Below are positions 8,132-37,505 of a stretch of DNA of 38,539 nucleotides, one piece after another. How positions within the stretch are numbered: position 1 is the first letter of the stretch; each line of letters opens with the position of its first letter. Position numbers and translations under genes: made by a program. Where the stretch lies: the NCBI GenBank assembly GCA_030649305.1, contig JAUSFV010000028.1, positions 1 through 38,539 on the forward strand. Reading direction: 5' to 3'. The stretch comes from a bacterium (GTDB lineage: Bacteria; Patescibacteriota; Minisyncoccia; Sungbacterales; GWA2-42-14). Below the pieces are notes generated by a model, which was not told the origin of the DNA, did not search any database, and saw only the letters and a program-made list of their open reading frames with translations.

Positions 8132-8644
8132 TTATTTCTTACTTCTAATCAAAAATGTTTCCGGTGTTTCTCCAAGGTCGGTAAAATCATCCGCCGCCTC
8201 TTTTAATTTTGCGGATGCGGAGCGTCCGAACGCGATTACTTCAACCTGCTTTCCCTGATTGCGCAGATACTCAATAAGCGGAACATAATCGCCGTCACCC
8301 GACACAATCACCACAACATCCACGGACGGAGAAAGGCGCACCGCGTCAATCGCAAGCCCCACGTCCCAATCTGCCTTTTTCAAACCGCCGGGGAAAATCT
8401 GTAAATCTTTGGTTTTTGTTTCAATGCCGATTTTGGTGAGCGCTTCAAAAAAAGTTTTTTCTTCGCCCGTTTCCGTACTGATGACGTATCCGACTGCGCG
8501 AATCAACTGGCGCCCCGCCGTTGCCTGTTTCAGAACTTCTTTAAAATTCACCCGCGCGTGATACAGGTTCTTTGCCGAGTGGTACATATTCTGCACGTCA
8601 AGCAGTACCGCGACGCGCTGATTTTTGTGTTTGATGACGCTCAT
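8132..8644 (-). CDS. NYN (LabA/DUF88-type, PIN-like) domain protein
   Basis: VAVLLDVQNMYHSA...KADWDVGLAIDAVRL...DVVVIVSGDGDYVPLIEYLRNQGKQVEVIAFG, classic NYN/LabA motifs. Confidence 0.88.
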   Translation of the reverse strand: MSVIKHKNQRVAVLLDVQNMYHSAKNLYHARVNFKEVLKQATAGRQLIRAVGYVISTETGEEKTFFEALTKIGIETKTKDLQIFPGGLKKADWDVGLAIDAVRLSPSVDVVVIVSGDGDYVPLIEYLRNQGKQVEVIAFGRSASAKLKEAADDFTDLGETPETFLIRSKK

Positions 8645-8648
8645 ACGC

Positions 8649-8725
8649 GAACAGCCGCAAACAGATAGCGAACAGACGCTAACAGCTGCTGTTCGTGGCT
8701 GTTCGTCCGCTGTTCGTGTCTGTTT
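8649..8725. repeat. (R)AACAG/CTGTTY mirror array, copy 1
   Basis: gaacag-4-aaacag-5-gaacag-4-taacag-3-ctgttc-4-ctgttc-5-ctgttc-4-ctgttt. Ends 4 nt before the NYN gene ATG (minus strand). Confidence 0.9.
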
Positions 8726-8729
8726 GTGA

Positions 8730-8996
8730 TTATTTCTTTAACCCAAGCTTCTTCACCAATCCCGCGTGTTTCTTCGGATTCGTTTTTGCAAGATAATCAA
8801 GGTGTTTTTTCCGGCGCCCGACCATGCCCAAAAGCCCCCGTCGCGAATGGTTGTCTTTGGGGTGTTTTTTTAAGTGCGCAGCAAGCTTGGTTATTTCTTC
8901 GCTAAGCAGGGCGGCCTGCACTTCGCTTGAGCCAGTATCGGTTTTGTGCGCCTTGAATTTCTCAATAATTTTTGATTTTTGTTTGGTCTGTAACAT
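8730..8996 (-). CDS. rpsO: 30S ribosomal protein S15
   Basis: 88 aa: HKTDTGSSEVQAALLSEEITKLAAHLKKHPKDNHSRRGLLGMVGRRKKHLDYL. Confidence 0.96.
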   Translation of the reverse strand: MLQTKQKSKIIEKFKAHKTDTGSSEVQAALLSEEITKLAAHLKKHPKDNHSRRGLLGMVGRRKKHLDYLAKTNPKKHAGLVKKLGLKK

Positions 8997-10276: not shown

Positions 10277-10316
10277 ATAAAATATTGTGCGACAAACTGA
10301 TACAATTGAAATACAC

Positions 10317-10393
10317 GAACAGTCACGAACAGAAAGCGAACAGGCGCTAACAGTCGCTGTTCGTGGTTGTTCGTCCGCTGTTCGCGGCTGTTA
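10317..10393. repeat. (R)AACAG/CTGTTY mirror array, copy 2
   Basis: Spacing 4-5-4-(3)-4-5-4, identical to copy 1; ends 5 nt before the Xer ATG. Confidence 0.9.
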
Positions 10394-10398
10394 GCGAT

Positions 10399-11307
10399 AT
10401 GAGCCTCAACGAATATCACAAACAATTTCTGGAGCATCTGGAAATTGAAAAAAATCGGTCGTTGAAAACGATTGAAAATTACGACCGTTATATTCGGCGG
10501 TTTTTTGCGTTCGCGCGCATCTCCTCCCCCACCGCGATTACGGATGAGGTGATTCGTGAATATCGTTTGCATTTGAATCGTGTCAAAGACGCGCATGGCA
10601 ACACGTTAAAAAAACAAACGCAGATGTATCACCTGATTGCGCTTCGGAGTTTTTTGAAATATCTTGTGAAGCGTGATGTTAAAACGCTTCCTGCCGAGCG
10701 AATTGAACTTGGTAAAATGCCGTCGCGCGAAGTTTCGTTTTTGGAGGGGGCGGAACTTGAGCGGCTCCTAAAAGCGCCGAGCGGAAACGCGATTGCAACG
10801 CTTCGCGACCGCGCGATTTTGGAGCTTTTATTTTCCACCGGTCTTCGCGTGTCGGAATTGTGCTCCCTGAACCGTGATTCAATCAATTTGGCGCATGATG
10901 ATTTTTCCGTGCGGGGCAAGGGCGATAAAATTCGCGCGGTGTTTTTGTCGGCAACGGCAAAAGACGCGCTGAAACAGTATCTCGCAAAACGCGAAGACGT
11001 TGATGCGGCATTATTTATTCAGCATAAATATAAACCAGCGACCACGGTGGATTTGCGCCTCACTCCCCGCTCCATTCAGCGCATGATAAAAAAATACGCC
11101 GCGAAAGCGGGTATTACCAAAGAAGTTACCCCACATAAATTGCGCCACTCATTTGCAACCGACCTTTTATATGCGGGCGCTGATCTGCGTTCGGTGCAGG
11201 CACTCCTTGGCCACTCAAATATCACGACTACGCAAATCTACACCCACGTTACCGACAAGGGCCTCCGCGAGGTGCATAAAAAATTTCATGGGAAGATGAG
11301 AAAATAA
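10399..11307 (+). CDS. XerC/XerD-like tyrosine recombinase
   Basis: SAM-like N-terminal domain; LLFSTGLRVSELCSL, TPHKLRHSFATDLLYAGADLRSVQALLGHSNITTTQIYTHV (R, HxxR, H/Y active site). Confidence 0.93.
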   Translation: MSLNEYHKQFLEHLEIEKNRSLKTIENYDRYIRRFFAFARISSPTAITDEVIREYRLHLNRVKDAHGNTLKKQTQMYHLIALRSFLKYLVKRDVKTLPAERIELGKMPSREVSFLEGAELERLLKAPSGNAIATLRDRAILELLFSTGLRVSELCSLNRDSINLAHDDFSVRGKGDKIRAVFLSATAKDALKQYLAKREDVDAALFIQHKYKPATTVDLRLTPRSIQRMIKKYAAKAGITKEVTPHKLRHSFATDLLYAGADLRSVQALLGHSNITTTQIYTHVTDKGLREVHKKFHGKMRK

Positions 11308-20667: not shown

Positions 20668-20775
20668 AAATGACTAATTCCTAATTCCTAATTTCTAATT
20701 AATACCCAATATCTAATTTCTAAAATTAGGATTTGGGATTTGATTAGGTCAATTAGAATAATTAGAAATTTTTAT
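20668..20775 (-). repeat. AATTTCTAATT/CTAATTGACC palindromic repeat, copy a
   Basis: Near-identical to the reverse complement of 23708-23820; ends 6 nt before the ATG at 20782. Confidence 0.9.
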
Positions 20776-20781
20776 TAAACT

Positions 20782-21189
20782 ATGGCTCTTTCCGATTCTT
20801 TACAAAAAGTACAGCAGCTTCCCGAAGGAAAACGCAGATTCTTCATGCTTGTATCCATGATTGTTTTTTCATTTTTGGTACTCGCCATCGCGTGGAAATC
20901 ATTTGAACGGAATTTGGGCATTCGCCTGGGTTCGGCACCCGAGGAAAACGGGGAGGTAACGCCGGGTCCGCTCCAATCATTGATAGAGGATATAAAAAGA
21001 ATCGCGGGAGGCGAGGAACCCATACGCGAACAGACGCAAACAGCAGAACAAACAGACGCGAACAGCACTACTTTGGAGAAGATTTTTTCGGTGGCCCGGG
21101 AAACACGGCGGGTGGTGAAATATAATGTAGGGGAAATAAGCGTGTGGGCACGCGAGACCGCCGCGTGGTTTCAGGGAAAACTTCAATAA
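20782..21189 (+). CDS. Hypothetical single-TM protein
   Basis: 135 aa; TM helix RRFFMLVSMIVFSFLVLAIAWKSF; contains an in-frame (R)AACAG repeat. Confidence 0.7.
   Translation: MALSDSLQKVQQLPEGKRRFFMLVSMIVFSFLVLAIAWKSFERNLGIRLGSAPEENGEVTPGPLQSLIEDIKRIAGGEEPIREQTQTAEQTDANSTTLEKIFSVARETRRVVKYNVGEISVWARETAAWFQGKLQ
21028..21065 (+). repeat. (R)AACAG array, copy 3 (inside a CDS, single arm)
   Basis: gaacagacgcaaacagcagaacaaacagacgcgaacag, translated ...REQTQTAEQTDANS. Confidence 0.85.
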
Positions 21190-23707: not shown

Positions 23708-23820
23708 AAATTTCTAATTTCTAATTTCTAATTGACCTAATCAAATCCCAAATTCTAATTTTAGAAATTAGATATTGGGCATTGATTAGAAATTAGGTCA
23801 ATTAGGTTAATTAGTCATTT
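23708..23820 (+). repeat. AATTTCTAATT/CTAATTGACC palindromic repeat, copy b
   Basis: ctaattgacctaatcaaatcccaa...ttgggcattgattagaaattaggtcaattag. Confidence 0.9.
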
Positions 23821-24361: not shown

Positions 24362-24403
24362 ATATCCTCGCAACATTGGCCTTCTTTAGAAGAGGGCATC
24401 TCA

Positions 24404-24482
24404 AATTTCTAATTGACCTAATTTCTAAAATTTAGTCATTGGTTATTTGGGATTTTATTAGAAATTAGGAATTAGTAATTTG
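24404..24482 (+). repeat. AATTTCTAATT/CTAATTGACC repeat, copy c (degenerate)
   Basis: tttctaattgacctaatttctaaaatttag...attagaaattaggaattag. Confidence 0.75.
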
Positions 24483-27610: not shown

Positions 27611-27988
27611 ATGAAACAAAAAAGTTTACAAATCATATATTCTTCTTTGATGGTCGGCGTGCTTCTTTTGCCGATGGTAGCCGTTGCTCAAACAGGAAGC
27701 GATCTTCAAACGACGCTTGATAAATTTACGACATATGCTCTTCGTCTTATTAATTTTCTTTTGGTTCTCGCAACGCTCGTATTCTTGTGGGGTATTATAA
27801 AATACATTACCGCGGGAGGAGATGCCGCTAAGGTTAAAGAGGCGCGGACATACATTATTTGGGGGCTGGTAGCCCTTCTGGTTATGGGTGCGGTATGGGC
27901 GCTTGCAAGCTTTTTGCGGGAAAGCATCGGGCTTGAAGAAGACACTACAATACCGCAGGATATTTATAAACAGGGGTCAGTACAATAA
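27611..27988 (+). CDS. T4SS pilin-like two-TM protein, paralogue 2
   Basis: LINFLLVLATLVFLWGIIKYITAGGDAAKVKEARTYIIWGLVALLVMGAVWAL. Confidence 0.8.
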   Translation: MKQKSLQIIYSSLMVGVLLLPMVAVAQTGSDLQTTLDKFTTYALRLINFLLVLATLVFLWGIIKYITAGGDAAKVKEARTYIIWGLVALLVMGAVWALASFLRESIGLEEDTTIPQDIYKQGSVQ

Positions 27989-28019
27989 ATCGGGATTAAA
28001 AATTAAAAAATTAATCAAT

Positions 28020-28391
28020 ATGAATGTCAGAAAAATAAATACAATATCCCAGAAAATCTTTTTCTCCTCTTTTCTTTTATTGCTTCCTCTGCTTGTTGTC
28101 GCGCAATCGGGAGATTCGTTTGATACTACTATCACTAAATTTATCAATTATGCCCTGAGCGCTATTAATTTTCTCCTGGTGCTTGCTACGCTTGTTTTTC
28201 TTTGGGGCATCATCCGGTATGTAAGCGCGGGGGGGGATGCGGCAAAGGTTAAGGAGGCGCGGAGTTATATTTTGTGGGGTATCATCGGACTTGCTATCAT
28301 GGGGAGCGTGTGGGCGTTGATCCATTTTTTGGAAGATAATCTTGGAATTGGAACTGATGAGGAACAAACTATTCCTAAGTACGGTATTTAA
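28020..28391 (+). CDS. T4SS pilin-like two-TM protein, paralogue 3
   Basis: INFLLVLATLVFLWGIIRYVSAGGDAAKVKEARSYILWGIIGLAIMGSVWALI; start chosen at MNVRKIN. Confidence 0.8.
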   Translation: MNVRKINTISQKIFFSSFLLLLPLLVVAQSGDSFDTTITKFINYALSAINFLLVLATLVFLWGIIRYVSAGGDAAKVKEARSYILWGIIGLAIMGSVWALIHFLEDNLGIGTDEEQTIPKYGI

Positions 28392-28469
28392 TAACTAAAA
28401 TAGATATCCGGGCCTTTTTTTGCTGATATAGTCAATCGGCAAGAAAATGTGTTTCGGTAAGAAGAAAAA

Positions 28470-28844
28470 ATGTTTTCTACACTCAAAACTGACTTGCTCT
28501 CTTTCCGAATGAGCAAAAAGGCGATTACGACGCTTGGTGCGCTTTCGCAGCTTGCGTTTCCGCTAGTAGTGCTCGCGGATTTAAACGACACCATCGCGCA
28601 ATTTCAAGGGTATGCCCTGCAGGCGATTAATTTTTTGCTTGTGTTGGCGACACTCGTATTTTTGTGGGGAATTTTAAAATACATCACCGCCGGAGGAGAC
28701 GCTGCCAAGGTTGCGGAAGCCCGTTCCTATATTATCTGGGGGATTGTCGGGTTGGCGGTTATGGCATCCGTTTGGGCGATTATTAATTATCTGAAAGAAA
28801 CGCTTAATATTCAGGGGGGGGATAATACGATTCCGACCTACTAA
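28470..28844 (+). CDS. T4SS pilin-like two-TM protein, paralogue 4
   Basis: INFLLVLATLVFLWGILKYITAGGDAAKVAEARSYIIWGIVGLAVMASVWAII. Confidence 0.8.
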   Translation: MFSTLKTDLLSFRMSKKAITTLGALSQLAFPLVVLADLNDTIAQFQGYALQAINFLLVLATLVFLWGILKYITAGGDAAKVAEARSYIIWGIVGLAVMASVWAIINYLKETLNIQGGDNTIPTY

Positions 28845-28858
28845 ATACTGAAAATGAT

Positions 28859-28897
28859 AAAACAAAACGCTCCGATTTCGTCGGGGCGTTTTGTTTT
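28859..28897 (+). terminator. Rho-independent terminator
   Basis: aaacaaaacgctccgatttcgtcggggcgttttgtttt. Confidence 0.8.
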
Positions 28898-29023
28898 CCC
28901 CGAAAGTGGGCGTTAAGGTCTCGTCTCTCGCGGGCTAGCCCGTGCGTTTCGCACGAACGCCCTAGGGAGGCGAGACCTTGCGTGTGAATTGCAAGAAAAT
29001 AAGAAAAGTTTTATGATAGAAGT

Positions 29024-29338
29024 ATGAAAAAATTCCTTATCCATTCATATTTTTACATCCTCCCCGCGATTGTGTTGGCGCAGGAAAGCGACGAAACCGT
29101 TCAGACGCTTCTTGAGAAGATCTCCGTAGCAATAATCAATCCCATCATAAATCTTCTGCTTGTGGTGGCAACACTCGTATTTTTATGGGGCGTTATTCAG
29201 TATTCGCTTGCGGCAGACAGCCCCGATAAAGCAAAAAAGGCGCGGAGCCAAATCGTCTGGGGCATTGTAGGTCTTGCCGTTATGGCATCTGCCTGGTCGA
29301 TTGTGAATCTGATTGAGGATAGCCTTTTTGGCCTTTGA
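29024..29338 (+). CDS. T4SS pilin-like two-TM protein, paralogue 5
   Basis: INLLLVVATLVFLWGVIQYSLAADSPDKAKKARSQIVWGIVGLAVMASAWSIV. Confidence 0.78.
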   Translation: MKKFLIHSYFYILPAIVLAQESDETVQTLLEKISVAIINPIINLLLVVATLVFLWGVIQYSLAADSPDKAKKARSQIVWGIVGLAVMASAWSIVNLIEDSLFGL

Positions 29339-29379: not shown

Positions 29380-29462
29380 GTTTGATTTTTCTTGTTATTC
29401 TGTTATGCTTATGGTAATGTATTCTACATTCTACTTACTATTTTTTTAATTTTTTTTATCAT

Positions 29463-33629: not shown

Positions 33630-33775
33630 TGTTTTTCCTCCGATCCTTACGATTGAGTAATTGTAAAAGTTCGCTTTTCTATGTTAGGAGATGGCCCTCG
33701 GGTTGTCAAATTGCGCTGTGCACATCTTCTTTGTTTTTTGCGGGGTGTTATACTTTAAGTAACACAAACAATCGC

Positions 33776-33849
33776 GAACAGCGACGAACAGTCGCGAACA
33801 GCGCGGGCTGTTGGCGTCTGTTCGTGTGAAGTGCTGTTCGCGTCTGTTA
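33776..33849. repeat. (R)AACAG/CTGTTY mirror array, copy 4
   Basis: gaacag-4-gaacag-4-gaacag...ctgttg-4-ctgttc...ctgttc-4-ctgtta, ending 7 nt before the CorA ATG. Confidence 0.88.
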
Positions 33850-33856
33850 GTGAACA

Positions 33857-34762
33857 ATGGCTACTCAACTCATCAAAGAAAACGGCATTGTGTGGTTGCA
33901 CGCGACGAAACCATCGCCAAGAGATTTTGAGGCAATTCAGCGCGTATTTCGCTTTCACCCGCTTATTATGGAAGAGATTGCGTCCCCCACGCGCCAGCCT
34001 ACTATTGAGGATTATCGAGACCACTTTTTACTGATACTGCACTTTCCTATCATTTATCCTTCTAGCGAGATGAATACGATTGCTGAGGTTGATTTTCTCG
34101 TTTCAAAAAAATCGCTTGTGACGGTTGTGTATCAGGATATGCCGCGGCTTGAGGATTTTTTCAAGCAATACCGGACTTCGTTTCCGGAAGATGCGCGCGA
34201 CCCCGGGCTTCTTCTTTATCGCGTTATTGAGTATCTCCTGCGCGGGGTTATTCCTGATCTTGAGCAGGTGGCGGATGAAATTGACCGTATTGAGGGGGCG
34301 ATTTTTGACCGGCAGGACTGGGAGTTGGTTGAGGAGATTTCAAATCTGCGCCGCGACATCGTGGATTTGCGCCGCACCATGCTGCCTCAGCAGACAGCAC
34401 TCGACCTGCTTCCGCATGTTGCTTCCCGTCTTTTCGGGAAAGACGTAGAGCCCTATTTCGTGGATATTCTGAAGATCACGAGAAAAATTTTTGGGGTATT
34501 GGACAGCTACAAAGAAACAACAGATGTATTGCACGAAACAATTCAGTCGCTTCTCTCCAACAGGATTTCGAGCATTGTGTCGGTCCTTACGATTTTTTCT
34601 GCGATTATTTTGCCGATAAATTTTCTCGCGTCCATCTGGGGCATGAACCATCAGTTTTTGCCGCTTCGCGACGGGCCGTATGATTTTTGGGTTGTGATGG
34701 GCATCATGGCCGCGATTGTCGGGGGGCTTTTGTGGATTTTCCGTCGCAAGCGATGGCTGTAG
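33857..34762 (+). CDS. corA: CorA-family divalent cation transporter
   Basis: C-terminal two-TM with SIWGMNHQFLPL (GMN motif); ILPINFLASIWGMN. Confidence 0.92.
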   Translation: MATQLIKENGIVWLHATKPSPRDFEAIQRVFRFHPLIMEEIASPTRQPTIEDYRDHFLLILHFPIIYPSSEMNTIAEVDFLVSKKSLVTVVYQDMPRLEDFFKQYRTSFPEDARDPGLLLYRVIEYLLRGVIPDLEQVADEIDRIEGAIFDRQDWELVEEISNLRRDIVDLRRTMLPQQTALDLLPHVASRLFGKDVEPYFVDILKITRKIFGVLDSYKETTDVLHETIQSLLSNRISSIVSVLTIFSAIILPINFLASIWGMNHQFLPLRDGPYDFWVVMGIMAAIVGGLLWIFRRKRWL

Positions 34763-37390: not shown

Positions 37391-37505
37391 TTATTCTAAT
37401 TTCTAATTGACCTAATGAAACCCCAAATTCCAAACGTCTGTTTTGGGCATTAGGCATTGGACATTGATTAGAAATTAGGTTAATTAGGAATTAGAAATTG
37501 TTTAA
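37385..37505 (+). repeat. AATTTCTAATT/CTAATTGACC palindromic repeat, copy d
   Basis: tttctaattgacctaatgaaaccccaaattcc...ttgggcattaggcattggacattgattagaaattaggttaattagg; ends 6 nt before the infB ATG. Confidence 0.88.

Follow-up and report, generated by a model that had tools for sequence, protein, structure and literature searches.

The AACAG element described here is probably a non-autonomous, dispersed palindromic repeat (~80–100 bp) of the REP/RPE-like kind, which a putative enzyme would have spread. It occurs in several places of the window (the whole stretch of 38,539 nt analysed here, i.e., contig C35 of the genome G000, which comprises 1.02 Mb in 54 contigs). A mobile palindrome fits the data better than a dedicated regulatory site, because the element has no fixed orientation, is missing at leaderless-looking promoters and is found as half-arrays within proteins. 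Mobile palindromic repeats are poorly described in Patescibacteria, and our literature search found no account of them in this group, nor of any Sungbacteria repeats.

Architecture and distribution of the AACAG element

The full element is laid out as four (C)RAACAG boxes, a loop and four CTGTTY(G) boxes, with CRC...GYG termini and a strictly invariant AACAG core. Four box clusters were identified in the window (8649–8725, 10317–10393, 21028–21065 and 33776–33849), and the corresponding features and their neighboring genes are as follows.

8132..8644, minus strand: NYN-domain gene (Pfam PF01936), whose start codon adjoins copy 1
8646..8728, no strand: copy 1, full AACAG palindrome (four plus boxes, 3-nt gap, four minus boxes)
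8730..8996, minus strand: rpsO (ribosomal protein S15, Pfam PF00312), upstream neighbor of copy 1
10313..10396, no strand: copy 2, full AACAG palindrome with a degenerate box 6
10399..11307, plus strand: Xer-type tyrosine recombinase gene (Pfam PF00589), leaderless-looking in relatives, with copy 2 as its leader here
20782..21189, plus strand: ORF of 135 aa carrying the in-frame half-array (no Pfam match)
21025..21068, plus strand: half-array of four RAACAG boxes only, in frame within the ORF 5' of gyrA, encoding IREQTQTAEQTDANST
33763..33852, no strand: copy 4, AACAG palindrome with variant spacing
33857..34762, plus strand: CorA-type transporter gene (Pfam PF01544), downstream of copy 4

Copy 1 occupies the entire gap between the rpsO stop codon (8730–8732) and the NYN start (8644), both genes lying on the minus strand, and its start-to-start box steps (10, 11, 10, 9, 10, 11, 10) are identical to those of copy 2, in which box 6 reads TTGTTC. 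Copy 2 sits between a −10-like hexamer (TACAAT, 10301–10306) and the Xer ATG (10399), and copy 4 likewise between TATACT (33749–33754) and the CorA ATG (33857), with box steps of 10, 10, 12, 10, 16 and 10 and an extra degenerate box (AAACAA, 33766–33771). Checking these steps confirmed the shared architecture that a preliminary description of this DNA had given for copies 1 and 2, the variant status of copy 4 and the distances of 4, 5 and 7 nt from the last box to the NYN, Xer and CorA start codons, respectively. Its statement that spacer lengths are strictly kept, however, applies to just copies 1 and 2; in other copies, the spacing of one arm and of the loop is variable. In 300 random sequences built from the base-to-base transition frequencies of the window, the longest box run was 1–2 (once 4) versus 8 in the window, and 299 of them contained no run of at least three boxes versus four such runs in the window. 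Screening the window with Rfam returned tRNAs only, with no known structured RNA above the gathering score at the element.

The window also holds a second dispersed family of intergenic palindromes, made of AATTTCTAATTGACCTAATT words (20687–20758, 23726–23806, 24398–24480 and 37394–37498; 72-nt inverted copies are 96% complementary), and a third repeat of the word type, present as a pair of inverse copies of AATTTAGAATCTAGAAAGTAGAATGTAGAAT (931–961 and 29421–29451). In addition, small related genes form a tandem array directly before ftsH (27611–29338), with matches to the T4SS_pilin family (PF18895) in the three that were tested.

Using pattern searches, which miss degenerate copies and hence undercount, we found 12 loci in the whole G000 genome, namely seven full palindromes (four plus boxes, a loop and four minus boxes, some of them degenerate) and five half-arrays in ORFs with plus boxes only. 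The further copies anticipated by the preliminary description thus exist, and they extend to G022 (Parcubacteria GWA2_45_30, 17 full palindromes) and G015 (Ca. Sungbacteria NC_groundwater_251, 3 full palindromes), which belong to one genus in another family of the same order, and to G016, which has a few elements. A pattern for the palindrome center matched in these four of the 384 genomes of the class, in none of five other genomes of the same family, in none of 361 genomes outside the order Ca. Sungbacteria and never in a reversed-pattern control; note that the genomes compared are drafts of uncultured organisms (G022 being 72% complete). Among the matches listed, the contig pattern scan mostly returned 9-bp coding repeats outside the group. 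A virus-borne origin was rejected, as none of the 70 IMG/VR stretches that match the pattern carries four boxes on each strand in a two-strand check.

Across lineages, the word unit has the general form CRC(N)DAACAG and measures 10 bp in G000 versus 9 bp (CRCDAACAG) in the genus g16. The in-pair step differs accordingly (10 versus 9 bp), so helical phase is not conserved, and the relatives show inter-pair spacings of 10–29 bp. In the g16 copies, one arm is fixed at a 9-10-9 spacing, and the other has a variable gap of up to 29 bp between boxes and sometimes contains a small hairpin of its own. The helical phasing and phased protein-binding array proposed in the preliminary description are contradicted by these spacings. 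It is therefore very improbable that the element is a helically phased array of sites on double-stranded DNA to which an oligomeric regulator or a nucleoid protein would bind: the regular 10–11 bp spacing of copies 1 and 2 and the invariant core would suit such an array, but step and spacing change between lineages, half-arrays lie within ORFs, orthologous sites lack the element, and the genes downstream of the copies are unrelated (rpsO/NYN, Xer, CorA, rpmJ, a jag-like R3H gene and a secE-like gene).

Hairpin structure and in-frame half-arrays

One strand of the element can fold into AACAG/CTGTT stems separated by conserved mismatches, and the predicted RNA folds are very stable (about −31 to −49 kcal/mol, z of −4 to −7). 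At the innermost box pair, the first position was mismatched in all 27 copies (T.C in 11, G.A in 11, G.G in 3 and C.C in 2), the T.C and G.A forms being the two strands of one mismatch, and the box 3/6 pair was G-C in 17/17 copies. Overall, the pairing at variable positions (93) fell below that of a shuffled-arm null (110.5, sd 3.4), a deficit that is exaggerated since the null ignores orientation flips of the element; as the copies are related, the conserved mismatches may also partly reflect common descent. Covariation was consequently rejected as support for an RNA. The apical mismatch suggests that the element is recognized as a hairpin, a mode of recognition which both the conserved mismatch and the unequal arms fit.

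Half-arrays consist of a single arm placed in frame within an ORF; the sense strand reads RAACAG in 8/8 cases, and two different reading frames are used. Their hosts include polA (in a linker), topA, gatA (in G016), a lamin-tail-like protein and other ORFs; the topA half-array is present in G015 and G016, with the same insert, decayed, in G022, and at G000:C31 the upstream ORF has a C-terminal tail made up of the left arm. Peptides encoded by the sense arm are hydrophilic (REQTRTANREQ-like), whereas translation of the antisense arm would give hydrophobic peptides, and this difference probably accounts for the strand bias.

Placement at start codons and turnover of gene junctions

All full palindromes are intergenic, save for small overlaps with gene ends, and nearly all of them end 0–8 nt from a start codon (start codons being ORF-based, some of them read by eye). 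This placement does not simply follow from tight gaps: the copies lie flush with the start even where 64–173 nt are free, and among those with at least 60 nt free on the other side, the start side was taken in 8/9 cases (one orthologous pair included), the exception being G022:C16. In G015, palindromes of other kinds that lie in same-strand gaps with a slack of 40 nt or more took the start side in 8/40 cases (Fisher p = 2e-4, for different genomes and slightly different criteria). The start-codon preference therefore exceeds what simple survival in gaps predicts, and, together with the genome-wide copies, it bears out the earlier view of a dispersed element favoring translation starts. A hand tally of the g16 copies showed no orientation preference, the strict arm being the one closer to the start in 9 copies and the more distant one in 10; because orientation is thus random, a signal in the mRNA does not fit, and a strand-specific 5'-UTR signal is unlikely. 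Of the 5'-UTR hairpin put forward in the preliminary description, the fold itself stands as physically plausible, but the lack of fixed orientation, the absence at orthologous leaderless promoters and the half-arrays inside proteins speak against such a function.

Comparison of orthologous slots in relatives showed that they are either empty (Xer, infA–rpmJ) or filled by unrelated palindromes. At Xer, G001 and G003 carry the promoter block ATTGTGCGAC-N8-TANNNT-N6-ATG without the element, G002, G008 and G011 have similar short leaders that also lack it, the slot of G005 contains another palindrome, and the element of G000 falls precisely between the Xer ATG and the −10-like hexamer. The sigma-70 scan makes no call at the Xer promoter, and we therefore infer from conservation that this gene may be leaderless in relatives. 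The infA–rpmJ gap, which harbors an AACAG element in G000, measures 0–6 nt in G006, G009 and G013; across the order it ranges from 0 nt up to 170-nt palindromes, with unrelated palindrome sequences in most other genomes and, in G007, a 111-nt stem that ends exactly at the rpmJ ATG. The orthologs of the CorA gene were too distant for such a comparison (about 34% identity).

Ten G022 sites have a comparable counterpart in G015, the sister species: the AACAG element is preserved in one, two (C1 and C16) retain just the element ends with another repeat between them, and the remaining seven G015 slots are occupied by different sequence, in most cases palindromes of TTCTAAG, CTAATT or TGCCAATC words. 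Words over-represented in the sampled G015 gaps are AGAACTTAG and TCTAACGGGG. The C1 and C16 slots, with outer AACAG ends flanking another repeat, are what would be expected if new palindromes preferred existing ones, so that insertion hot spots are refilled without function. As a full explanation this is highly doubtful, given that hot spots alone do not explain insertion at element-free leaderless promoters such as that of Xer, and it complements rather than replaces the mobile-palindrome reading.

The same junctions bear on the hypothesis that the element functions as an RNA hairpin module, transcribed within a 5' leader or between two cistrons and located a few nucleotides ahead of the start codon, where it would shield mRNA ends, insulate neighboring genes or tune translation; as its sequence would be exchangeable, unrelated repeat families could supply the hairpin. 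Start-flush placement despite free space and the stable predicted folds agree with this hypothesis, and so do the rpsO–NYN gap, where a palindrome or hairpin unlike the G000 sequence is present in 7/7 relatives read (z below −3 in six, G001 being the weak case, and one shared by G015 and G022), and the ten G015 slots (z below −4 in eight, versus 31% of control gaps). We nevertheless regard it as unlikely: orientation relative to the gene is random, mismatches are kept instead of pairs, several relatives have no hairpin at all at the Xer and infA–rpmJ slots, and occupancy is common anyway, since ~42% of sampled G015 intergenic gaps of 60–200 nt have z below −3. A related scenario, possible but also rather improbable, is that certain gene junctions require a hairpin of any sequence, the slot being kept while unrelated palindromic families replace one another and some leaderless genes become hairpin-leadered; such a need is conceivable because palindromes fill so many junctions in the order. 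As the junctions of sister species are repeatedly refilled by unrelated palindromes, selfish spread and structural need can be tested against each other.

Mobilization and comparison with known repeats

For the mobile palindrome that we favor, the mobilizing enzyme would recognize the extruded hairpin via its mismatches and unequal arms, and copies would persist where no ORF or promoter is broken. The sites tolerated would be the gaps separating adjacent genes and, in leaderless genes, the stretch from the −10 box to the start codon; a half-arm coding for hydrophilic residues may be tolerated in protein loops and linkers. The flanks and orthologous junctions showed no consistent target-site duplication, with a possible 2-bp AT at Xer only, and no autonomous partner was found among the candidates examined, i.e., Y1 transposases. 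These were rejected as they share no palindrome with the element: out of seven Y1 genes inspected in G000, G022 and G016, six are clearly flanked by other palindromes and none by AACAG boxes, and G015 has no Y1 match even though AACAG elements are present. The RAYT-like Y1 genes (G000:C4, G000:C37, two in G022 and two in G016; 225–243 aa) each have their own short palindrome on both sides, about 11–22 bp long, with a different word per gene and located near the start and stop codons.

A helically phased operator array has conserved helical spacing, unlike the AACAG element with its 10- or 9-bp step and variable arm. Bacterial MITEs (e.g., ERIC) share with it a short, non-coding, multi-copy form, terminal inverted repeats, intergenic location and patchy occurrence, but its arm consists of short words in an array, and neither a target-site duplication nor a parent transposon (for which Y1 genes only were examined) was recognized. 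REP/BIME sequences with their RAYTs are similar in being intergenic palindromes with stem mismatches, and G000, G022 and G016 possess Y1 genes of the RAYT-like type; however, REPs are 20–40 bp long (PMC3733652), while the AACAG element reaches ~80–100 bp and ends in CRC...GYG in place of a short palindrome with a GTAG/CGTC-type tag, and a RAYT gene is flanked by the same repeat, whereas the palindromes on either side of the Y1 genes in these genomes are unrelated to the element and G015 yields no Y1 match. Rickettsia palindromic elements (RPEs) are small dispersed palindromes located between genes and in frame within unrelated protein genes (PMC10969869), and the AACAG element resembles them in form and placement. 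It differs from RPEs in being built of 9–10-bp boxes, in placing a single arm only in ORFs and the full palindrome only between genes, and in its narrow distribution in Patescibacteria. Altogether, the AACAG element resembles known palindromic repeats, but its build and placement are unusual, as the family unites start-flush insertion, a conserved hairpin mismatch and half-copies that lie in frame within core proteins (polA, topA and gatA).
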